Of a stretch of DNA of 64,000 nucleotides, positions 18,524 to 35,891 are shown in pieces; within the stretch, counting starts at the first letter, position 1, and each line of letters begins with the position of its first letter. The notes beneath the pieces are model-generated. The model did not search any database, was not told where the DNA came from, and worked only from the letters and a program-made list of their open reading frames with translations. A program made the position numbers and the translations under genes. The stretch is from an uncultured Roseburia sp. (lineage in GTDB: Bacteria; Bacillota; Clostridia; Lachnospirales; Lachnospiraceae), in NCBI GenBank assembly GCA_947642555.1, contig CANRSX010000024.1, forward strand, positions 1 to 64,000. Direction: 5' to 3'.

Positions 18524-20347
18524 TCATCCTTCCACCGAATACGAAAACATCCCGTCCTCCCGTTCTGGCGCTCCCAGTATCCGGATCGTGCTGCCTGCCT
18601 CCGGCATTCCGTCCGTCAGCACCTCCGCCAGCGGATTGATCAGCTCCGATTCCACGAGATTGCCGATCCCGCGCCCGCCGTTTGAGAGATCGCGTTTGAC
18701 CCGCGCCAGCAGAAACTGCAGAAAAGCGTCCTCGATGACCAGGCTCATCCCTTTTTCCCGCCTGAAATTTTCCGCCACCGCCGCGAGCTTTAACCGCAGG
18801 ATCTCCTCCGCCGCCTCCTCGCGGATAAAATCAAACACGATCACATTGTCGCCGATCCGGTTTAAAAGCTCCGGGCGCTGGATCGTAAAGGTAAAATAAT
18901 TCCGGATCGCATCCAGGAGCACGCGCCGGATCTCCTCGTATTCCATCTCCGGCGTGATGGTCTGGAAGCGTCTTCCCGTCTGCGCATCCTGGCCGACGAT
19001 GCCGAGATTGCTGGTAAAAATAATGAGCGCCTCGGAAAAATACATGGTTTCCCCGGAGGAGTCCGTGATCCGGCCGTCCTCCAGGATCTGAAGGAATTTG
19101 TCCAGAATCGACGGGTGCGCCTTGTCGATCTCGTCGAAAAGCAGCACGCAGAAGGGCTTCCTGCGAACCGCATTTGTCAGCTGGCCGCCGTCGCTGTACC
19201 CGACATAGCCCGGAGGGGCCCCCAGAAGCTTCTGATCCGAGTGGGGCTGCTGGTACTCGCTCATGTCAAACCGCGTGACAAAGCTCTCGTCCCCGAAGAC
19301 AAACTCCGCGATGGTTTTGGCCAGCTCCGTCTTGCCGGTTCCCGTCGGCCCGGCGAGAAAGAGCACGCCCCTGGGACGGCTTCCCGAGCCCCCCTGTATC
19401 CCGGACATGCCCAGGCACGCCCGGCTTAAGATCCCGGCAGCCTTCTGTACCGCTGCCTCCTGGCCCCTGATGCGCCCGGACAGGTACTCCCGGATTCCCC
19501 TGACCTTTTCCCTTCCCAGCTTCTCCCACTGGCTCTCCGTCTCCCCGTACCGGAACATGCGGATCGCATCGCGGATCCGGTCCACCGTGTAACCCTTTTT
19601 CTGACAGAGGGAAAAAACGCCAAACAGATCCACAAGTGTCATGCCATCTGTCAGGGAGACGAATTCCTCCGCCGCCTGCCTGCGCTCCTTATGGCTCAGC
19701 CTGTCCGCGCCGGCCAGCCGGTCAAACCGGGCGTCCACCACCGCACTCCGCACCTCTTTTTCAGGCCGGGGAATCGTGAGGGTCCTCACATAGGGATTGT
19801 TAAAATAAAACCAGGCCGGAAGATCGTTGACCTTTTCCGTGATAAAAAACAGCAGGTTCGTCAGCGGCCGTTTCTCCTTCATGCTGATGGCCTGGGTCGG
19901 CGTCCTGGATGCCAGAAGCAGCCTGGTAAAGTACTCCGTCTCCTCCCCGGAAAGATTGTCCGGCATCGTGGCGATGGTGCCGGCGAGGTCGATGATCACC
20001 GCGGTGGGTCTGGCGGCGTCCGCCATCACGTTCCGGATCGCCTCCGTCGCGCATCCGATGGATGTTGAGGATTTCTCATCCGTGCCCGCCGCGCGGAAAA
20101 AAGCGGGGGTCATCTCCATTGCGAAGGGATTGTAAAATCCGTCGATCCGGTTATAGAAAATGACCGGGTCATACCCCTCGCCCGTCAGGTAGCGATGAAG
20201 GTACAGCGAGAGGCTCACGGGCTCGCAGGACCCGTCATCCTCATAGATCCAGAGCTGAAGATCGTGGATATTTCCCTCTACGATAAATGTCGTATTAATA
20301 TCCTGATAGACCGCCAGATCCTTCTGCCATTTTTCCGCCTGTATCAT
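18524..20347 (-). CDS. ClpB-like AAA+ ATPase
   Basis: A 607-residue protein. Residues 1-300 look like a degenerate AAA-type domain: an acidic Walker B-like strand (TAVIIDLAGTIA) and a sensor-like strand (LLFFITEK) are visible, but no Walker A. Residues 300-600 are an active ClpA/ClpB second-ring domain: Walker A GPTGTGKTELAK near 333, pore loop GYVGY near 381, Walker B VLLFDEIDKAH near 404, sensor IIFTSNLG, arginine finger in RPELLNRIGDN, and the ClpB-type small C-terminal domain. This suggests ATP-driven threading or disassembly of a protein partner. It overlaps the FHA gene by four bases and is the last of the thirteen cluster genes. It lacks the ClpB N-domain and coiled-coil arm, so it is not ClpB itself. 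Confidence 0.85.
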   Translation of the reverse strand: MIQAEKWQKDLAVYQDINTTFIVEGNIHDLQLWIYEDDGSCEPVSLSLYLHRYLTGEGYDPVIFYNRIDGFYNPFAMEMTPAFFRAAGTDEKSSTSIGCATEAIRNVMADAARPTAVIIDLAGTIATMPDNLSGEETEYFTRLLLASRTPTQAISMKEKRPLTNLLFFITEKVNDLPAWFYFNNPYVRTLTIPRPEKEVRSAVVDARFDRLAGADRLSHKERRQAAEEFVSLTDGMTLVDLFGVFSLCQKKGYTVDRIRDAIRMFRYGETESQWEKLGREKVRGIREYLSGRIRGQEAAVQKAAGILSRACLGMSGIQGGSGSRPRGVLFLAGPTGTGKTELAKTIAEFVFGDESFVTRFDMSEYQQPHSDQKLLGAPPGYVGYSDGGQLTNAVRRKPFCVLLFDEIDKAHPSILDKFLQILEDGRITDSSGETMYFSEALIIFTSNLGIVGQDAQTGRRFQTITPEMEYEEIRRVLLDAIRNYFTFTIQRPELLNRIGDNVIVFDFIREEAAEEILRLKLAAVAENFRREKGMSLVIEDAFLQFLLARVKRDLSNGGRGIGNLVESELINPLAEVLTDGMPEAGSTIRILGAPEREDGMFSYSVEG

Positions 20348-20994
20348 GTCTCATCCTCCTTTCCCGCCACCAGCCGCAGCGGCAGGTCACAGAGCGTGAT
20401 CACCGCCCCTTCCTTTGCCAGGACAGGCTCGCGCTTTTCCAGCCGTTTTCCGTCCACGAGGGTGCCATAGGTGCTGATATCCTCCAGGATCACCCCGAGA
20501 GATCTCCGCGGTGTGATCCGCACGTGCTGCCTGCTGACGGAAGGGTATCCGGCCAGAAGCTTCCCGCCCTCCGCGGTCCGGCCCACGACGCCGCCCTCCG
20601 CCGGGATCGGAATCTGATCCCCGTTCTCAAACTGCAGGGCAAACCGGGATGCAGATCCCGGGACTCCCGGATTCCCGGCCTGACCCGACCGGCCATCTGA
20701 CGCCCGGCCAGCCATCTGACGCCCGGCCAGCCATCCGCCGCCCGGGATTCCCGGTTCCCCGGCCCCTTCCTGGCCCGGTCGGCCATCTGACGCCCGGTCG
20801 GCTCCCGCCTCTCCATTCCCGGCCCGGTCGGCCCCCGCCTCATCCGCCGTCCGCTGCACGATATACGGATCGTCCTCGCGGTAGGTTCGGAACTCCATAA
20901 GATTCCTGCCGCAGGACGGACAGTTATCCGGGAATCCCATTCTCCGCTCAAATACAATCTTTTCCCCGCAGGCACATATCTTACAAAACGCCAT
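20344..20994 (-). CDS. Zinc-ribbon and FHA domain protein
   Basis: A 216-residue adaptor. The first 30 residues hold a zinc ribbon (CKICAC ... CPSC). A linker of about 80 residues is rich in Gly, Ala and Arg with repeated GRASDGR and GxPG words. The C-terminal 90 residues are a forkhead-associated domain, which binds phosphothreonine peptides: VVGRT, SVSRQHVRI and STYGTLVDGKRL are visible. The usual Asn of the SxNGT motif is Tyr here, so peptide affinity may be altered. With a Ser/Thr kinase two genes upstream, this protein is the natural reader of its phosphorylation. It overlaps the AAA+ gene by four bases. Confidence 0.85.
   Translation of the reverse strand: MAFCKICACGEKIVFERRMGFPDNCPSCGRNLMEFRTYREDDPYIVQRTADEAGADRAGNGEAGADRASDGRPGQEGAGEPGIPGGGWLAGRQMAGRASDGRSGQAGNPGVPGSASRFALQFENGDQIPIPAEGGVVGRTAEGGKLLAGYPSVSRQHVRITPRRSLGVILEDISTYGTLVDGKRLEKREPVLAKEGAVITLCDLPLRLVAGKEDET
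20680..20850 (-). repeat. Degenerate repeats in the FHA protein linker
   Basis: The words CATCTGACGCCCGG and close variants recur at irregular spacing and encode GRASDGR/GRQMAGR peptides between the zinc ribbon and the FHA domain. Confidence 0.65.
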
Positions 20995-21055
20995 GACTCT
21001 CTCCTCCTGTTACGCCCACTCTGTCCACAGGCATCCCACTCCTGTCCCAGGCGTC

Positions 21056-22216
21056 CTACTCCTGCCCCATCGCGCGTTCCTTCTGTTTTCCTCTCCGCGC
21101 GCGCCGCTGCGAACCAGATTTCTTCTGCTCCAAAATCTGCCGGCTGCTGCACATCGTCTCCACCCGCGCAGGCTCTAGATATACGCGCTTTAAGATCACG
21201 CCGCGCTCCGCCGCCCGCTCCTCGAGCGTCGCGTAAAGCGAGCATACGTGATTTGCGCTGTATTCTAACCGCCGCTTCTGATCCAGCGAACCGTCCGTCG
21301 TCTCCGCCACCGGTTCAAACATGATGCCGCTGCCGTCATTTCCCACAAACACATCGCAGTCCGGATGTCCGTCCACGGCGAACAGTGTCCCGTCCACGTG
21401 ATCCAGCGCCGCCTCGTCCTTCACATGACAGCCGAGCTCCTCCATCAGATCGCCGATGACCTCCATGATATATTCCTCCTGCCTGCGCGTAAACAGAAGC
21501 TCCCGGAGCCGTTTCGTCTCCTCCTCCACCCGGTAAAACACAGTCTCCGCCGGGACCACTCCCGTCATCCCGCACAGCACGGCATACTCCTGACAGACCG
21601 CCGCCTGCCGCTCCCTCTCCTCTGGCGTCATCCGCGTGCCGCTCTGGAGAAAGCCGGTCACGCGCATTTTTGCGAAGCGGACCTTATCCTCGATGTCCAT
21701 CGTCTCATCGGCGAGCAGCTCCCGCAGCTTCTCCGTCAGGCGTGCTCTCTCCCGCTCGTCCTGCTCCGTTATGACGGCGCGCCCGTTTACCTTTTCCACC
21801 CAGGCGCTTAACTCCTGATGCAGCCTTCCTGTTCCCGGTGCAGCGGACAGGAGGGCGGAGAGATCCTCCGCTCCGGTCTGCCCTTCCTGCCGCAGTTCTC
21901 CCGGTTCCCCGCCGGTCTGCTGTTCCTGCCGCAGTCCTCCGAATTCCGTTTCCACGGTCTGCCCGGCTTTTTTCGCCTGCATCAGCGCTTCCGCGGATAC
22001 CATCCCCGCGCCGCGGTAACCGCTGACGCCGGTATCGTCGTCTGTTGCCGTCACATGAATGTCCACGCCGCCGTAAAACGCCATGCCGCCGCTTTTACTC
22101 TCCTGAAGCTGCTCCTTTAGCCGCTGCATTCCCGCCGCAAGCTCCCGCCGGACCTGCTGCCGGATCTGCTCCTTTCGCATCGCCTCAAGCTCCGCCGCCG
22201 TATAATAGCTGCTCAC
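21056..22216 (-). CDS. Unknown coiled-coil protein of the cluster
   Basis: A 386-residue protein I do not recognise. The start is a GTG at 22216, preceded by GGGGGTG and four bases after the kinase stop. Residues 1-45 are a charged helix (EAMRKEQIRQQVRRELAAGMQRLKEQL). A short Gly-rich segment with GELRQEGQTG-type repeats follows near 90-120. Residues 130-290 are helical and highly charged. A more ordered part near 290-340 contains LDHVDGTLFAVDGHPDCDVFVGNDGSGIMFEPV, which looks like a compact alpha/beta domain. The tail is strongly basic (QRRARRGKQKERAMGQE). No membrane segment. Position between kinase and FHA genes makes it a candidate phosphorylation substrate or scaffold (inference). Confidence 0.7.
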   Translation of the reverse strand: MSSYYTAAELEAMRKEQIRQQVRRELAAGMQRLKEQLQESKSGGMAFYGGVDIHVTATDDDTGVSGYRGAGMVSAEALMQAKKAGQTVETEFGGLRQEQQTGGEPGELRQEGQTGAEDLSALLSAAPGTGRLHQELSAWVEKVNGRAVITEQDERERARLTEKLRELLADETMDIEDKVRFAKMRVTGFLQSGTRMTPEERERQAAVCQEYAVLCGMTGVVPAETVFYRVEEETKRLRELLFTRRQEEYIMEVIGDLMEELGCHVKDEAALDHVDGTLFAVDGHPDCDVFVGNDGSGIMFEPVAETTDGSLDQKRRLEYSANHVCSLYATLEERAAERGVILKRVYLEPARVETMCSSRQILEQKKSGSQRRARRGKQKERAMGQE

Positions 22217-22220
22217 CGGA

Positions 22221-23804
22221 TCACCCCCATCCCTTCCTGATCTGCCTCATTTCCTCCCCGTATCCCAGACGATTCATCCAGGCCAGAAACCGTTCCTCCG
22301 CCAGCAGCCCGGCAATCTCCTCCGTCGTGTGACGGGAAAGCACCGGCACCAGGGAATCCAGCGTCTCCACCGTCTCCCCGAACACCCTGACCGACTGTTT
22401 TCCCTGCAATGCGAAACAGATCGTGCATATGGCGGTCATATCCTCGCAGCCGTTTCGCTGTATCATCTGTTCGAGACGGTCGACCAGCCCCCGTTCATAC
22501 CCCTTTTCCCTCAGATACCAAACGAGGAGCCCCGTCGCGAGAAACCGCCTCGCCCCCTCATCCGTCCCGCTCTCCAGCCGCTCCACATAATCGGCCAGCG
22601 AGGCGTAACGCGTCCCGGCGTAGCAGATTTCATCCCCGTCGTCGTCAATCCATGTCAGAAGCTGAAAGACCGCTGCGTCCGCGTCCTGATACCTGGCCAG
22701 CCTGCGGACATCCTCCGTCAGCTTTTGGTCAAACTGACGCACAAACGCTGGCAGCTCCTGTCGTTTTACGATCCGCGCCGCCTGGTCCCAGTGGCTCTTT
22801 ACCGCCTGCGCCAGCTCGTGCAGCGTGCGGACGGTCAGCATCTGGCCGTCGAATTTTCCGAAGATAAACGGCCTGTTTTGCGGCTCCTTTTTTCTCCCCG
22901 CATACAGATTCCGGTTCACGGGACGCTGAAATTCGCCCTCGCACCAGCGCTTTACCTCCGGATAGCCCCAGCGCGCGTCCTCCTCTTCCTGTAACAGGCC
23001 CGTGACCAGCGTCCGGAATCTTCCCCCGATCTGTGACGGCAGCTCGATTCCGTTTTCCCACGCCCGCGCAATCGCCTCCACGGACATCCCCTCAAACAGG
23101 GAAAAACCGAGGAGCATCCGGCAGACCACCAGGCCGAACGAACCGTAATCATAAGCCGGCGACAGCGAGGCGCTCCACAAAATCGCCTTCACCGGCGGCG
23201 CATATTCCGGCGTCCCGCGGATCGAATCCACCAGCTTCCCGTCCGCGCCCGCATACCCGCTGATCCCGCAGTCCCCGATCACCACCCTGCCGTGATCGTC
23301 CGCGAAAAACAGGTTATCCGGCTTGATATCGCAGTGTACGATACCGTTTTTATGCAGCTCGTGCAGACCTTCGTTGACGGACGGAACGACCACGTTCTGG
23401 ATCTGCGTCCCGGGAAGCGCTCCCGCCTGCCCGAGCGTCCCCTCGGGATAATAGTCGTAGATTTCATAATAATGTCCGGCGTACTCCCCGCACGAAGCCA
23501 CCCGCGCAATGTTTTTGTGATTTACGCTTGTAAGAAAGTTCTGCATCCGCGGGGAGGGGCGCCAGCCGTCGCGGTAAAGCTTCACCACATAGGATTTCCC
23601 CCATCGCTTTGCGAGATAGACCCTGGACTGTTTTCCCGATTCCTGAAGGGGCGAATGGATCACATAGCTGTCCCCGACCGACTCGCCGGACACAAGGCGC
23701 ACCGTTCCCCCGCCGTTTTTCTCCCCGCCCGGGGGGATTGTCTCATCCGCATTGATCCGGCCGCCCCGCGGCACGGGCGGCCTCGTCTCATCCGCATTGA
23801 TCAT
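22221..23804 (-). CDS. Serine/threonine protein kinase
   Basis: A 527-residue eukaryotic-like kinase. The catalytic loop is HCDIKPDNLFF near residue 155, the metal-binding motif is DCG in IGDCGISG near 176, the activation segment ends GTPEYAPP, and the ATP-contacting Lys is in SYVVKLYRDG. The glycine-rich loop is degenerate (ESGKQSRVYLAK). The first 35 residues contain two copies of INADETxPP, each with a Thr suited to phosphorylation and FHA binding. The C-terminal 280 residues are helical and unassigned; no membrane segment or PASTA domain is present, so the kinase is cytoplasmic. The start at 23804 follows AAGGAGG and overlaps the radical-SAM gene by four bases. Confidence 0.88.
   Translation of the reverse strand: MINADETRPPVPRGGRINADETIPPGGEKNGGGTVRLVSGESVGDSYVIHSPLQESGKQSRVYLAKRWGKSYVVKLYRDGWRPSPRMQNFLTSVNHKNIARVASCGEYAGHYYEIYDYYPEGTLGQAGALPGTQIQNVVVPSVNEGLHELHKNGIVHCDIKPDNLFFADDHGRVVIGDCGISGYAGADGKLVDSIRGTPEYAPPVKAILWSASLSPAYDYGSFGLVVCRMLLGFSLFEGMSVEAIARAWENGIELPSQIGGRFRTLVTGLLQEEEDARWGYPEVKRWCEGEFQRPVNRNLYAGRKKEPQNRPFIFGKFDGQMLTVRTLHELAQAVKSHWDQAARIVKRQELPAFVRQFDQKLTEDVRRLARYQDADAAVFQLLTWIDDDGDEICYAGTRYASLADYVERLESGTDEGARRFLATGLLVWYLREKGYERGLVDRLEQMIQRNGCEDMTAICTICFALQGKQSVRVFGETVETLDSLVPVLSRHTTEEIAGLLAEERFLAWMNRLGYGEEMRQIRKGWG
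23741..23802 (-). repeat. 17-bp direct repeat encoding INADET twice
   Basis: TCTCATCCGCATTGATC occurs at 23741-23757 and 23786-23802, 45 bases apart and in frame, at the 5' end of the kinase gene. Confidence 0.85.
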
Positions 23805-24442
23805 TCGCTTCCTCCTTTTCCCGGAATCCCGAAGGTCAGCACCCGCTCCGGGAGTATCACGTTCTGCACCAGACGCCGCGCCTGCTCCATCCCGCGGTAC
23901 CGCTCCTGATACCGGAATACATGGCACTGCTGATTTGCGGATCCACGCAGTCCCACCCCGTCGTTTTCCTCCTCGAGATAAGGGCCGTCCACCAGCGCGG
24001 CGCAGCAGGCGATCGCCCGGTCGACACAGGGATTTTTCATCGCCCGCAGCTCGCGGTACGTATATCCGGTGTACACCAGGATATCGTCGCTGATCAAAAG
24101 CAGCCCTTCCAGAAGCCCCGCCAGCGCCTCCGGGCGCAAAAAAGGCTCCCCGCCCGAAATCGTAAATCCGTCCGGCTGCCTGCCTCCCGAAGCCTTCGGC
24201 TGACCGCCCTCATCCCGGGCCGGCTGCCTGCCTCCCGAAACCTCCAGCATCCGGTCCACCGCCGCGAGAATCTCTCCCGGCGTCATCTCCCGGGCCGGGT
24301 CCGTCCGCCACAGCTCCGGGCTGATGCATCCCGGACAGCGCCTGGGACAGCCCATGGTCCAGATCCCGACCCGCCTTCCCGGCCCAAGCGCAGTGACCGG
24401 ATAATAGATTCTCGCAATGTCAAGCGTCCTGCGCTCTTTCAT
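23801..24442 (-). CDS. Radical SAM activase-like protein
   Basis: A 213-residue radical SAM protein resembling the small activases of anaerobic ribonucleotide reductase and other glycyl-radical enzymes. The cluster ligands are C32, C36 and C39 in CPRRCPGC, and the SAM-binding GGEP motif is present. A short repetitive insert (SGGRQP twice) lies just before GGEP. No nrdD or other glycyl-radical enzyme is encoded in the window, so the usual NrdG name is not safe. Embedded between a zinc-binding protein and the kinase, it may modify a component of this cluster. It overlaps the kinase by four bases. Confidence 0.8.
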   Translation of the reverse strand: MKERRTLDIARIYYPVTALGPGRRVGIWTMGCPRRCPGCISPELWRTDPAREMTPGEILAAVDRMLEVSGGRQPARDEGGQPKASGGRQPDGFTISGGEPFLRPEALAGLLEGLLLISDDILVYTGYTYRELRAMKNPCVDRAIACCAALVDGPYLEEENDGVGLRGSANQQCHVFRYQERYRGMEQARRLVQNVILPERVLTFGIPGKGGSE

Positions 24443-24457: not shown

Positions 24458-25507
24458 TCACATTCTGTTTCTTTCTGAAAAATGCATGGCACACACCAGC
24501 CTGCCCTCCGGCACATGCCTTCCGCAAAACAGACAGCTGTGCTCCGCCTTCCGCTGCCGGATCCGGCGTCCCGCCTGCCAGCGGTTCATCGCGGTCACAA
24601 GCTCCTCCGGCGTGATGCAGCAGCTCCCGCCGCCCGAAAGGCTCCGGATGCACGCGGCAGGAGCGGGAAGCGGCCGGCAGAGCTCCTCCTCCCCCGGAGG
24701 GCGCAGACCCGTCACGATCCTTCCCGAAAGGAGCGACAGCGCATCCTTAGGAGTGGAGGAGACCAGATTGCCCGTCCCCCAGCAGTACGGGACGTCGGTA
24801 AGCCCCTCCTCATACGCGCTGACGTTCAGCCACGCATGCGTGCCGACCGGTTCTTTCCGCAGCGCGTCATATGCGCGCATCGCGCTTCTCTGCTCCCAGA
24901 TCAGGAAAAATTCCTCCCCGTGAAAAAGCGACGCCCCGCCGAGCCGTTTCTTCTGGATCACCCAGCCGTAATCCGGCTGTCTCACGCGAAGCAGCGCGGG
25001 CAGAAATTTTGTGTTCACCGCATAGACAAGCTCCAGAAGCCCGTCCGTCTCCACCCAGAGCAGATCCTTTATGGCCTCCACGCCGCCGTACACCGCGGCC
25101 AGGTGCACACAGGAGGACGCGATATCCCGCATCGCCTGCACACAGGGTATCACCTCGTTCTTTTTCAGGACGGAAACGGATTCCGGAAACGGTTCTGGCG
25201 CGCAAAGACACCCTCTGCTCCTCTCCCGCTCGCCCAGGATCCGCTCACACAGCCGCTGCACCTCCGGCAGCAGCCGCGACGCCGCAAGGGGCTCCCCGTA
25301 CAGCCGGTTTAAAAGCGTCTCGCCCTCTCTGCGCAGCGAACCGCCGATCTCATGGTAAAATACGCAGTCCTCCAGACAGGAGCGAAGCTTCTCCACATCC
25401 TCGTCGTCGTCCAGCGCGCGCTGATACATCTGTGCCAGCATATCCTCCCTGCCGGTTGTCTCCCGGCTTAACAGATCTAAGAATTGGAGCACCTCTCTGC
25501 TTTTCAT
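24458..25507 (-). CDS. Unknown protein with C-terminal zinc-finger-like end
   Basis: A 349-residue protein that I cannot place in a family. The first 130 residues are helical with many Glu and Arg. Residues 140-260 form a probable alpha/beta domain (LLELVYAVNTKFLPALLRV, GEEFFLIWEQRSAMRAYDAL). The C-terminus has CLFCGRHVPEGRLVCAMHF, two Cys-rich pairs that could bind zinc. There is no membrane segment. It overlaps the preceding gene by four bases (ATGA) and lies 15 bases before the radical-SAM gene. It could be a substrate or partner of that enzyme, which is inference from adjacency only. Confidence 0.7.
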   Translation of the reverse strand: MKSREVLQFLDLLSRETTGREDMLAQMYQRALDDDEDVEKLRSCLEDCVFYHEIGGSLRREGETLLNRLYGEPLAASRLLPEVQRLCERILGERERSRGCLCAPEPFPESVSVLKKNEVIPCVQAMRDIASSCVHLAAVYGGVEAIKDLLWVETDGLLELVYAVNTKFLPALLRVRQPDYGWVIQKKRLGGASLFHGEEFFLIWEQRSAMRAYDALRKEPVGTHAWLNVSAYEEGLTDVPYCWGTGNLVSSTPKDALSLLSGRIVTGLRPPGEEELCRPLPAPAACIRSLSGGGSCCITPEELVTAMNRWQAGRRIRQRKAEHSCLFCGRHVPEGRLVCAMHFSERNRM

Positions 25508-26079
25508 GCAATCTCCTCCTCCGCAAGCACTTCCGCAAGCGCCTGGCAGCGCGGATCGCCGGGTGCGAACGCAAGCGCCCTGCTGATATGACGCACCGCG
25601 GCGACGCGGGCCGCATTGCCGCGGTCTCCCCGAAGCGCGGCAAGCGCCAGCAGATACTCCTTTTCCGCCGAGTCCGGCAGCGCGGCAAGCGCCCCGTTCA
25701 CCTTCCCCGGATCCACAGCGCTCTCATATCCCTCCGCGGTAAGCGACAGCGACACAACCGCCCGCATCAGACGCTCCGAAAATCCGGCATCCGGCTGCAG
25801 CGCATCCGCTCCGGTGACTCCCGGCTCTCCCTGCTCTGCCAGGCAGGCGGCTCCCGGCTCTCCCGACTCTGCCAGGCAGACGGCTCCCGGCTCCCCCTGC
25901 TCTGCCAGGCAGGCGGCTCCCGGCTCTCCCGGCTCTGCCAGGCAGACGGCCCCGCCTGCGACTCCCGTACAGCCCGCAGCCCGCTCCCGCAGAATTTCAC
26001 GCTCCTCCTCTGTGCCCGCAGCATCCGCCGCCAGCTCATAGCACTCCCTTAGCAGGAGCAGTCTCCTGTCTTCTGACAT
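25504..26079 (-). CDS. Helical TPR-like protein with GEPG repeats
   Basis: About 191 residues. The N-terminal 40 and C-terminal 95 residues are helical; the C-terminal text (AALPDSAEKEYLLALAALRGDRGNAARVAAVRHISRALAFAPGDPRCQALAEVL) resembles a tetratricopeptide-type helical pair array. Between them are four 11-residue units of the form ACLAEQGEPGA, each with one Cys. The start at 26079 follows AGGGGTGAG; an upstream GTG at 26088 is possible and would overlap the membrane-protein stop. No function is known. The protein may act as a scaffold. Confidence 0.7.
   Translation of the reverse strand: MSEDRRLLLLRECYELAADAAGTEEEREILRERAAGCTGVAGGAVCLAEPGEPGAACLAEQGEPGAVCLAESGEPGAACLAEQGEPGVTGADALQPDAGFSERLMRAVVSLSLTAEGYESAVDPGKVNGALAALPDSAEKEYLLALAALRGDRGNAARVAAVRHISRALAFAPGDPRCQALAEVLAEEEIA
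25818..25949 (-). repeat. Four 33-bp tandem repeats
   Basis: Units at 25818-25850, 25851-25883, 25884-25916 and 25917-25949, differing by a few bases, encode the 11-residue CLAE-GEPG peptides of the TPR-like protein. Confidence 0.9.
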
Positions 26080-26084
26080 CCCGC

Positions 26085-29400: not shown

Positions 29401-30052
29401 CCGCCTGTCCTCTGGCCGCCATCGTGCCCTTCGCCGGGATGGCGTTCACAAATGCTTCGGCCGCTTTTACCATCGCGTCCATCCGCCCTTTTCTTTCCCA
29501 CTCCTTCGCGTCGTTGTTTATGTGCTCCTGATAAGTCTCGAGCTGCTCCTGCTCACATTCCAGCTTCGCGATCTTCACATCGCTCTCGTAAATCTGCTGG
29601 CTGTTCACCCGCGCGCTCTGCCATTCCTGCCGCGCCTCCTTAAGGCGCTGTCCGAACAGGCCGGTGCAGTCCCGAAGCTCCCGAAGCGCCGCGACCGCCT
29701 TTTCATGTCCCGCCGGCAGCTTTTGCCACGCACCAAAGCTCCTGCCGCCTGCCGCCCTGCTTTCCGGCGCCTCCTGCGCGCTGCCGCCTGCCGCCCTGCC
29801 TTCCGGCGCCTCCTGCGCGCTGCCGCCTGCTGTCTCATCCGGGGCAAAGGCAAGGATAAGCCCGTCCGCAGTGTCCCGTTCCACAATTACGTCAATTGTG
29901 GTTCCGATTTCAGTCTGCCTCTGTGACGCGCCCCCGGAGATCACACCGATTTTTCCTTCCCGAAGCTCCACGACCACATGACCCTGATACACATTGATGA
30001 TACGGCCGTTTACACGTGTTCCCGCCTGATACTGTACTGCATTTTGTTCCAT
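26423..30052 (-). CDS. FtsK/SpoIIIE-type multi-domain ATPase
   Basis: A 1209-residue protein. Residues 10-70 resemble an S1-like beta-barrel (VNGRIINVYQGHVVVELREGKIGVI). A repeat linker and a long charged coiled coil (about 120-300) follow. Residues 340-600 look like a first, degenerate FtsK-like domain. The active FtsK domain has Walker A GPTGAGKST near 660 and Walker B LLLIFDEIQE near 762, with LLDFKEGVEFAPY and ILACQDFRN. A third degenerate domain follows to the C-terminus. Several P-loop domains in one chain recall EssC of type VII secretion, but the transmembrane and FHA parts of EssC are absent. The start at 30052 follows GAGGAGA. A polymer-moving motor is expected; the cargo (protein or DNA) is unknown. 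Confidence 0.85.
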   Translation of the reverse strand: MEQNAVQYQAGTRVNGRIINVYQGHVVVELREGKIGVISGGASQRQTEIGTTIDVIVERDTADGLILAFAPDETAGGSAQEAPEGRAAGGSAQEAPESRAAGGRSFGAWQKLPAGHEKAVAALRELRDCTGLFGQRLKEARQEWQSARVNSQQIYESDVKIAKLECEQEQLETYQEHINNDAKEWERKGRMDAMVKAAEAFVNAIPAKGTMAARGQADLEMERVRELHFNGYGASNAVLAALGRLQECRKAEAERTRNEKLDRVRKEQIERDTASERAFQEKSRRICEEGNRDLAAGFEQKVIRGFCQTGRSLRFRAAGYECPSEVPDEIVFGEIGLAIPVNDPDMAAVVQAVEQQAAEAGEKQNGSYVVRLPYTQRLTDGISLLMRYAPADRGDVQKQLQPLLLKLFLSFPAGKLEATMIDPLELGASFSMIPKLAEGPNSARIIDTKIWSKERDIEEAVAALRQRLENLTQSYGTDRESRLKKEVVRALAITDFPTGFSASALSDLQAIVRNSASLGVCVLICANENGLEELRQKNPALADEIGRSMVVTKASGDRLMLVGPGMENLFLQLDDMSDVWPYQDQIFSQISNAVDRAQLKVEHFQGMFREDIYDSNQWFTGNHDEIAIPIGIRGADTVVRLVLGRGGGSTEHHVLIAGPTGAGKSTLLHTLILSALISYSPDELQMYLLDFKEGVEFAPYTRYRLPSLRVVAIHSEREFGLVVLKELCAELEERSKYFTRYNVSEINDYMQLPDVPKVPKLLLIFDEIQELFRSREEADSISAQCLSCIGKLVTQGRAMGIHVILACQDFRNCSGLEAYFGQMAVRIAVRGSEDGAASILSAGNSGVRSLQNQPAGSAIYNGGGGAESANHFFQISYIREEERAGLLNALDAYFTDPSVAELYEEMQTRILLTNAEGNMKNCFNRLILDGADSLAPIGRKKDGRGLLLGLGFGKKSSFVPEFQRRNRDNLLMVIRDEEMALALSLLASMSLLYEELCASANPQNALLYIADYYAGEPGDSDAGFDDLEGLFPQQVRLAKPGDTEELIESLYETVLARAEGRLPDTERIFFLFFGIGRAKRLQRGSLYDDGNGSQTPQEQLQKILSFGPKYGVNSIVWSESTAGIQTMLGDRYDTLFDKRIAYRLDEKEMEFLVGGSAGDAGYGKTAVYMDIGADAKNTHFRPFDIPAREWLERYAEVYREMTEEGGLEG
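29748..29825 (-). repeat. Two 39-bp tandem repeats in the FtsK-type gene
   Basis: Two 39-bp units encode AGGSAQEAPEGRA and AGGSAQEAPESRA between the S1-like barrel and the coiled coil. Confidence 0.85.
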
Positions 30053-30087
30053 AACATCTTCTCCTCTGTCTTGTTCCGGCCCTTTCG

Positions 30088-30119
30088 CTGTGCTGCCCTG
30101 CCGCTGTGCTGCTCTGCCG
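30088..30119. repeat. 16-bp direct repeat in the gap before the FtsK-type gene
   Basis: CTGTGCTGCCCTGCCG and CTGTGCTGCTCTGCCG lie in tandem in the 88-base gap between the small protein and the FtsK-type gene. No promoter is recognisable there. Confidence 0.6.
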
Positions 30120-30140
30120 CCCTGCACCGGCATTCACGCT

Positions 30141-30422
30141 TCATCCGATCACATCCTCCGGCAGCTCATCCGCCTGCGGAATCTCCCCCTCGCAGGCAGT
30201 GATCTCGTCAAAGCACTCGCGGATCATGAACAGCGCTGCCAGCGGCTCGTCCAGATCACGCTTCAGCGGCTGTCCGACCGGGCCGACCGCGGTCTTCCGC
30301 TCCAGCGCGTTTCTCATCAGAAACATCACAGCCGGACCGCCCTCAATCTTCCCGGTCCCGTCCTCCCAGTCATAACGGATCGTCTCCGTCTCGCCCATAA
30401 TCACACCCGTCACCTGAAACAT
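30141..30422 (-). CDS. Small acidic protein of unknown function
   Basis: A 93-residue acidic protein with no membrane segment and no recognisable domain. The text suggests beta strands at the start (MFQVTGVIMGETETIRYDW) and a helical second half (PLAALFMIRECFDEITACEGE), ending in an acidic tail. AGGAGG precedes the start by five bases. It lies 12 bases after the metallopeptidase-like gene, before the FtsK-type motor. Its position beside a putative toxin or protease would suit an immunity protein or chaperone, but the sequence itself gives no proof. Confidence 0.6.
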   Translation of the reverse strand: MFQVTGVIMGETETIRYDWEDGTGKIEGGPAVMFLMRNALERKTAVGPVGQPLKRDLDEPLAALFMIRECFDEITACEGEIPQADELPEDVIG

Positions 30423-30434
30423 ACCCGCCTCCTG

Positions 30435-32372
30435 TCACAATTCCGATAAAATTCCGAAAATAAAATCCTGATACTCGGTATCCCGGGCCAGGTTGTAGCT
30501 CCCGCAGTACAAGGACTCCAGTCCCATGCTGAACAGCTCATAGCCCTTTCCGCCGTAGTCCTTTCCCATGTAAGCGCTGACGAACTGATCCACCCGCGTC
30601 CGTTCGAAAAGGCCATAGCCAAAGCCCAGCCACCGCTTCTTCTCACCCGCGGTCCTCCGCTCGTAAAACTGTTTCTCCAGCGTCAGGATCTCCGGAATCA
30701 GCGATTCAAACCGGTGGCCCATCTCGTGAAACGCGCACCGCTGCGCATCCGCTCCCTCTCCGCTGATCGCGATCTTATCCCGCTTTGCTCCGCCCTTAAA
30801 ATATCCGCGCCGCCGGTGCCTGGCCACGATCGGCTTCTCACTGCTTTTCTCTATCCACTCCGTGGGCAGATATTCCCGCACCGAATTGATCGCTTTGATC
30901 GGGCCCGAGGCGCCAAACGAGTTCTCGTTGTGGTAACGCTGCACAATGGACGGGTCTGTCGGCCCCAGCCTGCGGCGTTCCGCGAGGACCGCCCTCATAA
31001 TATTACGCCTGTCGTAGTTTTCGTGATAAAGATTTTCCTGCAGCATCAGAAGCTGCCTGCGCACCTCGATGCGCTCCTGCTCCTCCGGCGTCTTCGCCTC
31101 CCGAAATTCCGCCGCCAGAGAGCGCTGCGCCTCGTGGATCCGGTCCCAGTCCGCATTCCGCCGCCCGATCAGCGCGTCGCAGCGCTCCCGTACCGCTGCG
31201 CCCGCCTGCCGGATCTCATGCTCAGTGACCGTGCCGTTTCTTATGCCTTCCCTCACCTGTTCCCTGCGCGCCCTCTCCGCCAGAAACCGCTTCTGCTCCC
31301 GGCGCTGCTCCTCTGTCAGAAGCAGCTGCCCCATCTCCATCTGCTCCGGTGGGAGATCCGTCTGCTGCGGGGCCTTTTTGCCGGAGGAAAGCGCCGCCCC
31401 GAGTCTTACGGCACGTTCGGCCAGCTCCTTATAATCAGGCTCAGGATAGTCATAAAACCCATAGGTTCCGTCGCGGATCTCGCCCTCCAGCCGCTCGGTC
31501 AGCCCCATGCGAAGCTCCGACATGACAAACTCCATCGCCTCCCCGTCCGCGACGCCCAGGTCACGCAGATTGTCCCGGTAAACCTCAAGAATATTGTCTA
31601 TGTAGCGCAGCCCCATCTCCTTCCTCTCATGGGGCGAGAGCTTTAACACTTTGGGCGGATCCTCATCCGGCGCAGCCGGGTCCAAAGGGAATGCACCGCT
31701 TCCCACAGTACCGTAAGCGCCGCTCCCGACCGCTCCCGGCTCTCCCGAAAGGCCGGCTGCGCCTGGCATGACGGCCCTCTCTTCCCCCGAAAGGCCGGCC
31801 TCATCCGGCTTCGCCAGCCCTCCGAAGAATCTGCCTCCCGCCCAGGGATCTTCCGCAGTTCCCTCTTCCAGCGCCACGGCATACTCCGCCGACGCGCGGA
31901 TCCCCATGCTTTTTAACAGCGCGATACGGATATTCTCCGCCTCGTTGAGCCGTCCCGCAATCGCACGCCCGGCCGTCCGCTGATCTGCCCCGAACGGGCC
32001 TGCCGCGAGCGTTCCAAGCTTTTTCAGATTGGCCTGCTCCGCGTCGCGGTAGCGGCGGATTTCCTCTGCCTGCGCCTGTTTTTCCGCGCGCACCTGCGTC
32101 ACGGCCTCATCTGCCCTGGCGAGGGCCCGCTCGCTCGCCGCGAGCTGCTGCTCCGCCACCGCCAGCAGCGCCCTCGCCTGTGTGACGTCCCCTGCCGGAC
32201 GCCCGGCCTCATCCGTCTGCTGCGCTGCGGCCAGCCGGTTTCGCGCCGCGGCCACGCGCTCTCCCGCCGCCGTGACTCTCGCCTGACAGGCAGAAAGGTT
32301 CTGATCCGCCTCACGGCCCTGTTCGATCAGCGCCTCCGCTTTTTTTCCGATTTCACTAAAACTGCGTGCCAT
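30435..32372 (-). CDS. Coiled-coil protein with C-terminal HExxH metallopeptidase-like domain
   Basis: A 645-residue protein. Residues 1-170 are an Ala/Arg/Glu-rich coiled coil. Residues 175-235 are a Gly/Ala-rich linker with GLSGEPGA-type repeats. Residues 240-440 are helical and charged. The C-terminal 200 residues contain AFHEMGHRFE near residue 548, the HExxH zinc signature, with downstream acidic candidates in YELFSMGLESLY for a third ligand. This domain layout, helical N-terminus with an enzymatic C-terminus, is what large type VII-like or phage-borne effectors look like. There is no signal peptide. It sits between an acidic helical protein and a small protein, upstream of the FtsK-type motor. 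Protease activity is inferred from the motif only. Confidence 0.75.
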   Translation of the reverse strand: MARSFSEIGKKAEALIEQGREADQNLSACQARVTAAGERVAAARNRLAAAQQTDEAGRPAGDVTQARALLAVAEQQLAASERALARADEAVTQVRAEKQAQAEEIRRYRDAEQANLKKLGTLAAGPFGADQRTAGRAIAGRLNEAENIRIALLKSMGIRASAEYAVALEEGTAEDPWAGGRFFGGLAKPDEAGLSGEERAVMPGAAGLSGEPGAVGSGAYGTVGSGAFPLDPAAPDEDPPKVLKLSPHERKEMGLRYIDNILEVYRDNLRDLGVADGEAMEFVMSELRMGLTERLEGEIRDGTYGFYDYPEPDYKELAERAVRLGAALSSGKKAPQQTDLPPEQMEMGQLLLTEEQRREQKRFLAERARREQVREGIRNGTVTEHEIRQAGAAVRERCDALIGRRNADWDRIHEAQRSLAAEFREAKTPEEQERIEVRRQLLMLQENLYHENYDRRNIMRAVLAERRRLGPTDPSIVQRYHNENSFGASGPIKAINSVREYLPTEWIEKSSEKPIVARHRRRGYFKGGAKRDKIAISGEGADAQRCAFHEMGHRFESLIPEILTLEKQFYERRTAGEKKRWLGFGYGLFERTRVDQFVSAYMGKDYGGKGYELFSMGLESLYCGSYNLARDTEYQDFIFGILSEL

Positions 32373-32384
32373 ACCATCCCCTCA

Positions 32385-32873
32385 TCAGAAGAGCCCGTCC
32401 AGGTTCTGCCTGAGCGCTTTGATCTGATCCTGTACATCGTCCACGGTTCCCTCCGCATCCGCAATGATTCCCTCATACTCTCCGGCGCTTCCCTCAAGCT
32501 GTCTGCTGCCCGCATCCGCGGCTTCCCGCCCGATCTCCGAGATCCCGCCCGCCTGCTCGAGGCTCGCGATCCCGCCGCGGACATTCTCAAGCTCCGCACC
32601 CATCTCATCGCTGATGTGCTCTCCCTGCTCTCCGATCTCATCCCCGGACTGCTCCACATCCCCGGAAAACGCGGCGTCAAAGCTCCCCCGGTAGGAATCC
32701 CCGGTATCCCGGATCGTCTCGATATCCTCCGAATCCTGCAGGTCAATGCTGTCTAACACGGCGTTGATCTGATCCGCCTGCTCCGTCATCTCAGAACCTA
32801 TGTCAGTAGTTTCTTTTCCTTCCCGCTGCAGTTCTCCAACGCCCTCAATGCCTTTTCCACGAAAGCTTCCCAT
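32385..32873 (-). CDS. Acidic helical protein, possibly WXG100/ESAT-6-like
   Basis: A 162-residue, strongly acidic, almost entirely helical protein without Trp or Cys. It resembles small type VII secretion substrates and their partners in size and heptad character, but it has no WxG motif, so the family assignment is not secure. Text such as SEMTEQADQINAVLDSIDL and GTVDDVQDQIKALRQNLDGLF would form long amphipathic helices separated by Gly-containing turns. It starts three bases after the HerA-like gene and precedes the metallopeptidase-like gene by 12 bases. The reading frame starts after AAAGGGGTAAGAG. Confidence 0.7.
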   Translation of the reverse strand: MGSFRGKGIEGVGELQREGKETTDIGSEMTEQADQINAVLDSIDLQDSEDIETIRDTGDSYRGSFDAAFSGDVEQSGDEIGEQGEHISDEMGAELENVRGGIASLEQAGGISEIGREAADAGSRQLEGSAGEYEGIIADAEGTVDDVQDQIKALRQNLDGLF

Positions 32874-32876
32874 CTC

Positions 32877-35800
32877 TTACCCCTTTCTTTTCTCCGGTGT
32901 GTCGACGATTCCCGCCGCCCCGTAACGCCTGATGTAGAGCTCCAGCTCCCCGTTTAAGTCCTGCGACAGCCCGCGAAGCTCCTCCGCCCCCTGTCCGAGG
33001 GCAATAAATTCCGCCGGCAGCCCGGCCGTCCCGGGTCCTGCGCTTCTGCCGGCTGTCTCCTCCTCTCCCGCCCCTGTATCCGGCTCGCAGAATGCGTTCT
33101 GCACCAGCCCGTAAAGCCCCAGCGCAAGATCGCACATGCCTGACTGTAACACCGTGATTTTGATCAGGGAGAGCTCCGATGCGCCGGCACGCATCCAGCG
33201 GCCGCATTTTAACCGCTCCAGCGCAAAGGCCCACTCCCCCGCGGTCCGGATAATTTCCGCCGCCTCCCTGTGCTTTTCCTTTTCCGCAATCGTCAGCTCA
33301 TAGCCGGACTCCAGCAGCTCCAGCTGGTCGTACCGGCGCAGCTTTTCCTCCTCCGGCAGCAAGGTCCTGCCCAGCTCCGCATTCGCCAGGTACCGCTTTA
33401 ACTTCTCTATCGTTTCCCGCTGGGCCGCCACCGTCTGATACCAGTAGGCACAGGGCTTCTGACGCTTCTCCAGATCGCGGAGCATCTGCCGGTATTTTAA
33501 CCCGATGATGCGGATGCTGTTCTGATTCTCCTCCTGATAAGCCGGATTGTCCGCGAGCATCATCCGCAGCGCCGCGTCGTCCTTCGATGTCGTCATCCGC
33601 TCCTTTTCCTCCGGCGGGCTGATTTCTCCGCACCACTCCGCGATCCGCATCTGAAACGGGCGCATCAGCTTCTCATAAAAAATCAGCGCCTCACCGACGT
33701 CAAATGTCGCCATCTGCTCCAGCTGCAGCGGGCTTGCCGCCATCGTGCTCCCCAGCAGGGAACGGTCATCCGCCGAGGTGATCCGAAGCCCGAGCTTTAA
33801 CCCGGTATTTTTCAGCACCTCCTGCGCCATCACAGTCGGCAGCTGGTCGGCGATGACGATTCCTTCCTTTAACGCCCGCACCTCCGCCAGCATTTTCACG
33901 ACAAACGCAGTCGCCGCGCGCTTCGGATCCGCCTCCGCGCCGGTCTGCTCCTCCGACTCCGGCCCGATCAGATTGTGCGCCTCCTCGATAAAAATCACGT
34001 GGCGGATCTCCCCGTCAAAACGCGGGGACGCCTTTAACGTCTCGCGGATCAGCGAGCAGAGCATCAGCGTGAGGAAATTCGCCGGCCCGGTTCCCATGGA
34101 TTCCAGTTCGATCACTGCCGGGACCTCAAGCCATTTCTCCGGGGCGAAGGTGGACTCCGGCACGTCGAAGACGTCCCCCATCTCGCGCCGCATCAGGCTG
34201 CCGATCCTCACCTTTAACGCGGACTCCATGTTTCCCCGAATCTCCTCGCTGTAGCGGGTGGTCTTTAGCTCCTGCTCCAGCCGCCGGTAGAGCATGGACA
34301 TGGTCGGAAGCCGCCGCTTCTTCCCGTCCGCCTCCTTTTCCGTCCCGGTGTACACGTGCTCCGGAATCCAGCCCAGCTCCCGGTATACCGCCTCGATCGC
34401 CGTATCCAGAAGGAAGGGCATGGGCGGCTCTAAGGGAAAGGCTCCCTCAAACACCTGGCAGAGCCGTCTGATATGCTCCGCCACCAGCGTACCCTCTGGC
34501 ATCTCAAACGGGTTGATATGTAACGGAAAGCTCATATCCGCGTTCGGCGAAAACAGATACATCTCCCCCATCGCCGGGTCGTTTGCCAGCGCGCGGTATT
34601 CCTGCTTTGCCGGCTCGAGCACCAGAAACGGGATCCGGTGCTCCTTCCACAGCGAGGAGGTGATGTGATGCATTGTGTTCGTCTTCCCGGAACCCGGGAC
34701 GCCGGCGACAAAGGCGTGCTTTGGCAGAAGCTTTAACGGAAAACAGACGTCGTAGCCGTTTGGATCCTTTCCCAGAAACAGAGCTCCCTCGCGCGAAACC
34801 GGCGGCGGAGCCGTCTCCTTCGGCAGCTGGATCACCTCTCCGTCGTAGAGGGCCGGGAAGCGGAAGAAGGGCGCCGTCTCCTCCAGGGAAAACAGCGTCG
34901 GCAGGTAGTTAAGCCGCATTCCGGCCGTCTCCTCCCGGCAGACGATCATCCCCGGACGGCCCGGCCGCGCCACCATGCGCTCCCGCGGATTTTCGTATTC
35001 CCCTGCCGGCTCCTCCAGAAAACTCATCGCATGAAACGGCGCGTAAAACGTCGCAACCGTGTACTTTCCTTTTTTCAGGCCCTCGGAACCCGCTGCGTCG
35101 AGTATGGACGCCGCATCCTCCCGGTTTCCTGCAAATACCATGATATTGGTGATAAAATGCGGGGAGGAATCGTACGTTTCGAGCAGATCCTCATAGCTGT
35201 CGAGCACGTCCTTTCCCTCGTAGTCTCTCCGCGCCCCGAAGCCCCTCTCCTCCTGCCGCTTCCGCAGGATGCCCATAGGCTTTTGCAGCGCTTCGCGCAG
35301 CGCCTGGCTTCGTTCCACCGGGTAGAGATCCACGCGGTAAAGCGCCGTCTGGTTTAGCGCTTCCATCATTTTACACATGTGGTAAAGTCGTCCGTCCTCA
35401 TTCATCTCCCATTCCCGCAGCAGATAGTAATCCCCTCCGTCGTCGGACGGGAGAAGGGTCTCTGTTTTCGTCAGGAACGCACACGTGGAAAATTCAGAAG
35501 GCCCCGCCGCTGCCGGCGTCCCGCGTCCGGGAAACGGCGTCTGCCGCATTCTCTCAAACCGGTAAAATTCGGAGAGCGGGGATGCCTGCATCAGCGCGGG
35601 AACATTGCTAAGCGCCTCCTCCTTCCCGCGGATCAGAAGATAGATCGAAAGCCGTCGCCCCGGCATGTCCTTCGCCGGGGCTTCCGGCATGTCCTTCGCC
35701 GGATCGCGCGGCGCCCGGTAGAGGTAAAACAGGTGGTACGACAGCCCCGAGACAATCCCCTTGCGGTTGATCTGCCGCAGAAAGGCGGTGTGTTTTTCGA

Positions 35801-35891
35801 GCACTCCGTCCACGCCGCTCTCCGCTAAGGACGCGTACTGATTTAAGGTCAGATCCGGCAGCTGCCGCAGACAGTACCATAATTCAGACAT
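32877..35891 (-). CDS. HerA-like ATPase (DUF87 type)
   Basis: A 1004-residue protein of the HerA/FtsK superfamily. Residues 1-370 form a large N-terminal region without a recognised fold, including a tandem AKDMP repeat. The ATPase core begins VCFPLKLLPKHAFVAGVPGSGKTN, with Walker A near residue 400, then VLEPAKQEYRAL, and Walker B HVIFIEEAHNL near 634. The sensor-like region ADQLPTVMAQEVLKNTGLKL follows at about 690. The final 230 residues are helical. HerA proteins pump DNA or act in conflict systems, but none of the usual NurA, Sir2 or nuclease partners is here. It is the first cluster gene, 30 bases after nfo, preceded by GGAGAATC. Confidence 0.82.
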   Translation of the reverse strand: MSELWYCLRQLPDLTLNQYASLAESGVDGVLEKHTAFLRQINRKGIVSGLSYHLFYLYRAPRDPAKDMPEAPAKDMPGRRLSIYLLIRGKEEALSNVPALMQASPLSEFYRFERMRQTPFPGRGTPAAAGPSEFSTCAFLTKTETLLPSDDGGDYYLLREWEMNEDGRLYHMCKMMEALNQTALYRVDLYPVERSQALREALQKPMGILRKRQEERGFGARRDYEGKDVLDSYEDLLETYDSSPHFITNIMVFAGNREDAASILDAAGSEGLKKGKYTVATFYAPFHAMSFLEEPAGEYENPRERMVARPGRPGMIVCREETAGMRLNYLPTLFSLEETAPFFRFPALYDGEVIQLPKETAPPPVSREGALFLGKDPNGYDVCFPLKLLPKHAFVAGVPGSGKTNTMHHITSSLWKEHRIPFLVLEPAKQEYRALANDPAMGEMYLFSPNADMSFPLHINPFEMPEGTLVAEHIRRLCQVFEGAFPLEPPMPFLLDTAIEAVYRELGWIPEHVYTGTEKEADGKKRRLPTMSMLYRRLEQELKTTRYSEEIRGNMESALKVRIGSLMRREMGDVFDVPESTFAPEKWLEVPAVIELESMGTGPANFLTLMLCSLIRETLKASPRFDGEIRHVIFIEEAHNLIGPESEEQTGAEADPKRAATAFVVKMLAEVRALKEGIVIADQLPTVMAQEVLKNTGLKLGLRITSADDRSLLGSTMAASPLQLEQMATFDVGEALIFYEKLMRPFQMRIAEWCGEISPPEEKERMTTSKDDAALRMMLADNPAYQEENQNSIRIIGLKYRQMLRDLEKRQKPCAYWYQTVAAQRETIEKLKRYLANAELGRTLLPEEEKLRRYDQLELLESGYELTIAEKEKHREAAEIIRTAGEWAFALERLKCGRWMRAGASELSLIKITVLQSGMCDLALGLYGLVQNAFCEPDTGAGEEETAGRSAGPGTAGLPAEFIALGQGAEELRGLSQDLNGELELYIRRYGAAGIVDTPEKRKG
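35661..35702 (-). repeat. 18-bp repeat pair in the HerA-like gene
   Basis: CGGCATGTCCTTCGCCGG at 35661-35678 and 35685-35702, in frame, encoding AKDMPEAP and AKDMPG. Confidence 0.8.

Follow-up and report, generated by a model that had tools for sequence, protein, structure and literature searches.

A thirteen-gene cluster in an uncultured Roseburia sp. pairing a predicted polymorphic toxin and two motor ATPases with a recurring kinase, FHA, and Clp module

Locus and gene content

The window examined here is the full 64,000-nucleotide stretch of contig CANRSX010000024.1 from an uncultured Roseburia sp., and the feature under study is a gene cluster at positions 18524-35891 of its minus strand, a candidate conflict system. 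An earlier note on this DNA had described 13 consecutive minus-strand genes, and reading the open reading frames (ORFs) of the window confirmed all 13, in the order HerA-family ATPase, 162-amino-acid (aa) protein, predicted toxin, small protein, FtsK ATPase, membrane protein, 194-aa protein, 349-aa protein, radical SAM protein, kinase, 386-aa protein, FHA protein, and Clp ATPase. The tight spacing given for them is also as described, with the single exception of 61 bases between the FHA gene and the 386-aa (coiled-coil) gene.

The first gene (32877..35891) encodes a HerA-family ATPase of 1004 aa with Walker A at residue 397 (DUF87, E 2.6e-6). It is followed by a conserved helical protein of 162 aa (32385..32873; 51-64% identical in five genomes), a possible toxin partner, and by the 645-aa predicted polymorphic toxin (30435..32372), in which orthologue comparison distinguishes a constant N-terminal domain (residues 1-175; 31848..32372), presumed to serve in trafficking, from a variable C-terminal HExxH metallopeptidase domain (30438..31100) that matches a phage head protein. 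Next come a 93-aa protein (30141..30422), an EccC/EssC-like FtsK ATPase of 1236 aa (26423..30133; FtsK_SpoIIIE, 1.3e-26), a small membrane protein recognized by hydropathy with two helices by eye (26085..26423; the ORF opens at 26486), a 194-aa protein (25504..26088) conserved at 34-43% identity in four orthologues, and a 349-aa conserved protein (24458..25507) whose orthologue alignment ends in a zinc-finger-like motif, C-x2-C...C-x2-H.

The remaining five genes encode an NrdG/activase-like radical SAM protein with the motif CPRRCPGC (23801..24442; Fer4_12, 4.6e-20, and Radical_SAM, 2.4e-6), a Ser/Thr protein kinase (22221..23804; Pkinase, 5.6e-23), a 386-aa coiled-coil protein assigned to the MSGP family by a profile match to MSGPa (21056..22216), a zinc-ribbon (by eye) and FHA phosphothreonine-binding protein (20344..20994; FHA, 6.7e-11), and a ClpB-like AAA+ ATPase whose first AAA domain is dead (18524..20347; AAA_2, 6.8e-48, with ClpB_D2-small). 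By motif count, the N-terminal tail of the kinase (23715..23804) holds two INADET-PP threonine repeats, which are predicted FHA docking sites. Three start sites were revised by eye against orthologues: the annotated kinase start (the ORF opens at 23927) should probably move inwards to about 23804, the MINADET start of its orthologues, that of the membrane protein probably to about 26423, and that of FtsK perhaps to about 30052.

Absences reported for the cluster were tested by family scans with Pfam (all 13 proteins), NCBIfam (9 of 13), and PADLOC (10 of 13), and by a hydropathy scan of all 13. The HerA, FtsK, HExxH, kinase, FHA, radical SAM, and ClpB-like domains named in the note were borne out by Pfam E-values and by the HEMGH motif, and these scans likewise returned no sheath, needle, or NurA family. 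The note's further statement that an EssC membrane domain is missing agrees with the hydropathy scan, in which only the membrane protein (133 aa as scanned) has a segment above threshold; a hydrophobic hairpin is present in three of its orthologues. Two orthologues of other cluster proteins touch the threshold (1.61), the Clp protein of L131 and the radical SAM protein of L133.

Tandem repeats are concentrated here, with 11 of the 13 rows in the 64-kilobase (kb) window falling at 17991-35712, some of them describing the same array. These minisatellites are mostly intragenic (response regulator, FHA, 194-aa protein, FtsK, and HerA genes), and the orthologous proteins are shorter.

Conservation of the cluster

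When 84,980 species genomes were scanned with a profile built on the second half of the Clp-like protein, at least 591 stretches matched and at least 451 relatives were confirmed, of which the best 80 loci were examined. Five further genomes carry the 13-gene cluster, labelled Ruminococcus, Eisenbergiella, Erysipelotrichaceae, and Oscillospiraceae (two), and their Clp proteins (66-71% identical) are the top five among the matches listed. The full order is kept in three (L130, L131, and L133); in L132 it is intact as far as the FHA gene, with Clp on another contig (L045), and in the fifth (G1085) both cluster ends were seen, on separate contigs. The note had proposed conserved order, as opposed to scattering in relatives, as the check on a real system, and order is retained in all five genomes as far as the contigs reach, so that chance grouping of the 13 genes is excluded.

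Between the window and the four order-keeping genomes, 12 of the 13 genes are homologous, the exception being the small gene behind the toxin. The membrane protein is the least conserved of the twelve (25-46% identity), and a HerA orthologue is present in all five further genomes (66-73% identical), the remaining HerA matches being partial and less than 40% identical. The six Clp proteins group together as a single clade (SH-aLRT 100) in a quickly built tree that came with long-branch warnings. In L132, at about 5690-9397, FtsK reads as two overlapping frames, reflecting an assembly error or a real break.

An fbp-nfo gene pair (named by eye) is retained in all seven relatives of the window's genus that were fetched, and the cluster sits directly behind this pair in the window. 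Searches by tblastn found no cluster protein beyond nfo over the roughly 8 kb covered in six of these relatives and the 1.8 kb covered in one; a lineage-specific insertion behind fbp-nfo is supported by this comparison. Upstream of fbp, at 38900-40519, lies an AAA-ATPase-like protein with a possible nuclease-type C-terminus (by eye). By eye, the window, L130, and the Oscillospiraceae copies have different flanking genes. A transporter and regulator pair lies near the cluster in both Oscillospiraceae genomes, the flank in L131 being short. The G+C content of the cluster is 61.3% vs 53.6 and 54.3% for the window flanks. Foreign origin on the grounds of base composition was dropped, because the cluster does not differ from the adjacent nfo and fbp genes in third-position G+C.

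The cluster seems rare, since no second copy was found in the sampled genomes with FtsK (295 genomes of the order and 398 of the phylum), HerA (60 relatives), or the 349-aa protein (391 genomes of the class, the other 390 of which gave no match). When the species genomes were scanned with FtsK as a single protein, no relative was confirmed, most of the patterns used having fallen on stretches found to be unconserved. The search for phage-borne copies returned four distant Clp relatives only and confirmed no HerA relative. HerA neighbourhoods in relatives (L022-L029) and on two plasmids (L033 and L034) turned out to be other systems; in L022 (G045:C21, 1953-19718), a HerA-family ATPase lies in a long operon with GTPase-like and vWA-like proteins (by eye), a different HerA-centred cluster.

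The toxin and the genes beside it

With the window as reference, the N-terminal 175 aa of the toxin protein are 44-58% identical to those of four orthologues, and the last 200 aa are 23-25% identical. Over all pairs of the five readable copies, identity is 44-91% in the first 175 residues and 21-30% in the last 200, where a single pair stands apart at 80%. These five copies have four different C-termini, a contig end truncating the sixth copy, and each of the six cluster genomes has one match to the N-terminal domain. The C-terminus in L130 is a papain-fold glutamine deamidase (PF15644, 8.9e-15, above the Pfam cut-off), and those in L131, L132, and L133 have SprT-like or DUF6782-like metallopeptidase matches, all below the Pfam cut-off. 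The window C-terminus, with HEMGH at residue 549 of 645, is 44.7% identical (E 4e-33) to the C-terminal end of a head morphogenesis protein from a Bacillus phage, labelled as SPP1 gp7 family. PF15644-type toxin domains are usually deployed between cells.

Directly behind the toxin, in 5 of 5 readable copies, lies a small gene that changes between genomes (16-26% identical, except for the L132-L133 pair at 88%). A constant N-terminus, a swapped C-terminus, and a changing small gene are what a polymorphic toxin and its immunity gene would show, and on these grounds we identify the HExxH protein as a predicted polymorphic toxin, not a general peptidase, and the 93-aa protein as its presumed cognate immunity protein. 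The earlier note had recognized the motif and treated the genes as a single cluster; it missed the toxin identity and the two-block structure set out below. Neither the toxin N-terminal domain nor the 162-aa protein has a Pfam family above cut-off; the latter matches WXG100 at E 0.25, and two of six orthologues match WXG100 with E-values of up to 10. Family and profile comparisons showed no WXG100 or LXG homology for either of the two.

Motors

Against NCBIfam, the FtsK protein matched EssC (TIGR03928, 2.3e-26) and EccC (2.9e-24), with DNA translocase FtsK (PRK10263) at only 0.0073; its score to TIGR03928 is 91.8 bits, the whole-protein cut-off being 778 bits. A PDB profile search ranked 4nh0 first (deposited as FtsK/SpoIIIE, and which we take to be an EccC), with YukB at 1e-23, EccC5 at 1.5e-19, and DNA translocase FtsK at 2.8e-5. 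On these profiles the motor is classified as EccC/EssC-like, nearer to EccC, EssC, and YukB than to DNA translocase FtsK. Its conserved Walker A lies only in the middle domain (window residue 685) and is the single one in three orthologues, which lack the second match seen in the window at residue 1185.

Residues 392-1225 of the motor align with an FtsK in L020, and residues 430-919 with a protein of Caballeronia locus L031, which is annotated with WXG100, CARF, vWA, PP2C, and kinase genes. No alignment with those of L031 was obtained for the 162-aa, 349-aa, and toxin N-terminal proteins. The L020 protein (G096:C70, 2345-8814; 1436 aa, FtsK family) stands beside E1/ThiF-like and JAB-like proteins (by eye). 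The window's own genome holds a second FtsK-family protein (L002, G000:C48 29278-32412, a 1134-aa frame) that is distantly like the cluster FtsK. HerA orthologues match the solved HerA weakly in sequence (0.0033), and the 349-aa protein has no significant Pfam or PDB relative. PADLOC, run on 10 proteins, gave partial matches: the kinase to MAD6 and PD-T4-6, the motors to MAD8, HerA, and SspH, the Clp protein to PDC-M37B, and also one to mad3.

A recurring module

The second half of the cluster (radical SAM, kinase, coiled-coil, FHA, and ClpB-like genes) is, judging from its recurrence, a separable module that is reused beside other effectors. Of the 80 best Clp loci, which include close relatives such as seven from Undibacterium, 9 gave no Clp ORF and were left out, and partners were scored in the other 71 within 9 kb of Clp on the same strand. 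These loci have radical SAM (51), MSGP coiled-coil (49), kinase (45), FHA (35), PP2C (28), and helicase-family (13) genes; in the 34 whose flanks both exceed 6 kb, the counts are 26, 29, 27, 17, 15, and 6, respectively. All of these numbers are on the low side, since genes lying under longer opposite-strand ORFs (e.g. FHA in L046) were missed by the ORF picker. Most module loci are labelled Bacillota or Pseudomonadota, and single metagenome-assembled genomes are labelled Chloroflexi and Abditibacteriota.

All or part of the module occurs on plasmids as well. A tblastn search with the Clp N-terminal domain returned 19 plasmid records, six of which were inspected: behind a DUF4011 protein, an Aristaeella plasmid carries an unbroken row of kinase, coiled-coil, FHA, radical SAM, Clp, and PP2C genes, two Rhizobium, one Moellerella, and one Acinetobacter plasmid have Clp followed by radical SAM, and on a Geminocystis plasmid these two lie farther apart.

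Family features are consistent across the module proteins. In all 66 Clp relatives of 560-720 aa, the first 280 residues lack Walker A and the second domain has it (5 of the 71 Clp ORFs fall outside this size range and were left out). C-x3-C-x2-C is present in 47 of 48 radical SAM family members; a glycyl-radical motif, as a possible radical SAM target, was absent from the 13 proteins when searched with one pattern. The 48 family kinases were picked by the motif HxDxKPxN, whose presence in 48/48 is therefore circular and unused, and 45 of them have D-x-G behind the catalytic motif. The coiled-coil protein has phmmer matches in 11 loci outside the 13-gene genomes, and its family joins two sequence groups, MSGPa and MSGPb, at a profile probability of 95.2%. 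The copy in the window matches MSGPa at 98.5% and MSGPb directly at only 1.9%.

Two variants differ in their surroundings. In L048 (2893-18541), kinase, MSGP, FHA, Clp, and PP2C genes are followed by small hydrophobic proteins (by eye), an FtsK-family protein, and two paralogous proteins, with radical SAM not recovered. The motor there is a different FtsK-family protein of 1092 aa whose similarity to the window motor is confined to the latter's middle domain (4.2e-18), and L048 is perhaps a second, different motor-coupled system. The seven Undibacterium loci (L076, L092, L098, L101, L107, L111, and L113) have a compact MSGP-Clp-radical SAM-kinase arrangement, the kinase bearing an N-terminal zinc ribbon; in L107, radical SAM was not detected.

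Threonine repeats in kinase tails

Kinase tails in most FHA loci carry the motif T-x-hydrophobic-N/M, and those of the 13-gene clade carry a two-copy xET-PP form. The former occurs 76 times in 4,123 tail residues vs 16 times in 28,358 residues elsewhere, and shuffled tails (200 rounds) held a mean of 6.1 and a maximum of 13. At least two tail threonine motifs of either form are present in 26 of 29 kinases from loci with FHA (L046 being added to this group by hand) and in none of the 19 from loci without it. The reverse is seen for a zinc ribbon in the kinase's own N-terminal part, with 17 of 19 and 0 of 29, respectively. Three of the 48 kinases were left out of the first motif analysis and none of the final count. 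By eye, the exceptions in the FHA group are L068 and L117 (Pseudomonadota), which have another tandem threonine form, and L074, which starts at a contig edge; L119, counted without FHA, has tandem threonines of yet another form. The association suggests that the tandem threonines may be docking sites for the neighbouring FHA protein.

Comparison with known systems

The threonine-phosphorylation pathway of the type VI secretion system (T6SS) has a kinase, PP2C, and Fha. PMC11217815 mentions this pathway in passing. The cluster likewise brings together a kinase, an FHA protein, and a Clp-type ATPase; unlike the T6SS, it has no sheath, tube, VgrG, or baseplate match (Pfam for 13 proteins, NCBIfam for 9), and its Clp first domain is dead. 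HerA-NurA and other HerA-based defence systems share HerA, and no NurA or SIR2 match was found in Pfam and PADLOC scans of the cluster proteins. MADS defence differs in that the cluster kinase scores 48.3 bits vs an equivalog cut-off of 460 bits for MAD6, and the mad6, mad8, and mad3 PADLOC matches are partial.

Type VII secretion systems (T7SS), including T7SSc-j, resemble the cluster in having an EccC/EssC-family motor and polymorphic toxin substrates, according to PMC11217815. The same paper describes T7SS variants with membrane-bound motors and WXG100 proteins, and several subtypes that carry a kinase, a phosphatase, and a separate FHA protein. By contrast, the cluster motor has no membrane helix and one conserved Walker A, no WXG100 or YukD-like match was found among the 13 proteins, and HerA, ClpB-like, radical SAM, and coiled-coil proteins are added.

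Closer to the cluster motor are channel-less EssC-like ATPases, which PMC3482391 treats as mobile versions of type VII secretion with three domains and PMC11090510 as extensions of Type III-A CoCoNuTs. The likeness lies in a motor that lacks membrane helices and in which the middle of three ATPase domains is the sole active one, in the small helical proteins nearby, in a coiled coil fused to an effector domain, and in a small protein behind it. Unlike those blocks, the window cluster has no vWA, CARF, McrBC, or WXG100 match. Polymorphic toxin systems, as characterized in PMC3482391, share the constant N-terminus, the swapped C-terminus, and the changing small gene behind; the cluster departs from them in its unusual motor and signalling genes and in a toxin N-terminus without a Pfam family above cut-off. 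TerY-P triads, as described in PMC11090510, are similar as a kinase-based switch attached to diverse conflict modules. The cluster differs from these and from Type III-A CoCoNuTs in having the kinase only, with no vWA, PP2C, or McrBC match in the 13 proteins, and it adds Clp and radical SAM to what TerY-P has.

Among the papers listed in searches of open-licence full texts, judged by title, opening of the abstract, or selected passages, none described the cluster or the module of Clp, radical SAM, kinase, FHA, and coiled-coil genes. By these comparisons the combination fits none of the known systems considered. The note's view of it as distinct from those described thus stands overall, with the qualification that the FtsK motor itself belongs to a known kind, the channel-less three-domain EssC-like ATPases of PMC3482391 and PMC11090510.

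Discussion

We read the cluster, with confidence that is about evenly balanced, as a two-block conflict system for phospho-gated toxin delivery, related to the channel-less 'mobile type VII' motors. Block 1 would make and move the toxin and comprises the toxin with its constant, helical N-terminus, the immunity protein, the helical 162-aa partner, the cytosolic EccC/EssC-like motor, the HerA motor, and the two-helix membrane protein, and block 2 would be a reusable phospho-switch. The kinase would phosphorylate the threonine repeats in its own tail, possibly together with targets in block 1, the zinc-ribbon FHA protein would dock on the phosphorylated repeats, and the coiled-coil protein would scaffold the kinase-FHA complex. 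The ClpB-like ATPase may remodel this complex, and the radical SAM protein may modify or redox-sense a component. The phospho-dependent complex would in this way control the toxin-handling motors. On a trigger, the motors would export the toxin together with its partner, either through the membrane hairpin protein or at it, the immunity protein protecting the producer. A broader claim, which we make more tentatively, is that this is a new class of weapon, a toxin exporter with two FtsK/HerA-superfamily motors and no described channel, gated by a widespread unnamed phospho-switch that acts as a plug-in controller reused with different effectors in several phyla.

The earlier note had spoken of a phospho-regulated translocation or conflict system. 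Conflict is upheld by the swapped C-termini and the changing gene, and the phospho part by the kinase/FHA/PP2C module and the threonine tails; translocation we infer, since the scans turned up no channel and the motor is without a membrane helix. Several observations count against the delivery reading. No channel, WXG100, or LXG family was identified in Pfam and family scans of the 13 proteins, and no FtsK segment rises above the hydropathy membrane threshold in the window or in the L130, L131, and L133 orthologues. Pfam gave no PP2C match among the 13 proteins, and Clp stands alone in 3 of the 34 well-flanked loci. The immunity role of the 93-aa protein draws on position and polymorphism, its single plasmid match being weak (E 0.06). 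The threonine patterns were chosen after viewing the tail sequences, and FHA presence largely tracks taxonomy (Bacillota vs mostly Betaproteobacteria), so the threonine-tail association is a lead only.

Of the alternatives, the one that fares best, which we judge possible though unlikely, is that the toxin acts inside its producer, released from the immunity protein or partner by the phospho-module and Clp, as part of an abortive-infection or anti-invader system. PMC11090510 ties a similar EssC-like motor block to CoCoNuT restriction systems. Such a role would also suit a cluster with no channel family and a motor with no membrane helix, and in 13 of 71 loci the module lies within 9 kb of DUF4011 or MTES_1575-type helicase genes, which look like nucleic-acid defence (two members scanned). 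The conserved small membrane protein, the EccC/EssC-like motor, and the PF15644 C-terminal domain, of a polymorphic-toxin kind usually deployed between cells, argue the other way, and it is because of motor class, membrane protein, and toxin type that we favour export over in-cell release.

It is improbable that a toxin cassette and a general stress-signalling module are two unrelated, adjacent operons. Nearly all loci examined hold the module but no toxin block, and the species-wide search, being based on Clp, could not have shown toxin blocks without the module, which counts for this view. Set against it are the unbroken order across genomes of differently labelled families, the monophyletic Clp clade of the six cluster genomes, the other FtsK-family motor beside the module in L048, and searches with HerA, FtsK, or the 349-aa protein that found no stand-alone toxin block in the sampled genomes. 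Just as improbable is a DNA-handling machine in which HerA and FtsK pump DNA, the metallopeptidase processes, and the remainder regulates: the HerA and FtsK families include DNA motors and PADLOC gave HerA and mad8 matches, yet this FtsK is nearer to EccC/EssC/YukB than to DNA translocase FtsK, none of the 13 proteins gave a nuclease, relaxase, or NurA match in Pfam, and the supposed peptidase is replaced by a papain-fold deamidase in another genome.

If the phospho-gated delivery reading is true, Bacillota would have a further toxin-delivery machine, and the channel-less EssC-like motors would gain a cargo of a toxin with a presumed immunity protein. The predicted docking of FHA proteins on kinase-tail threonine repeats offers a concrete, testable step, and the putative phospho-switch module is now exposed in dozens of the best 80 Clp loci, among at least 451 relatives.

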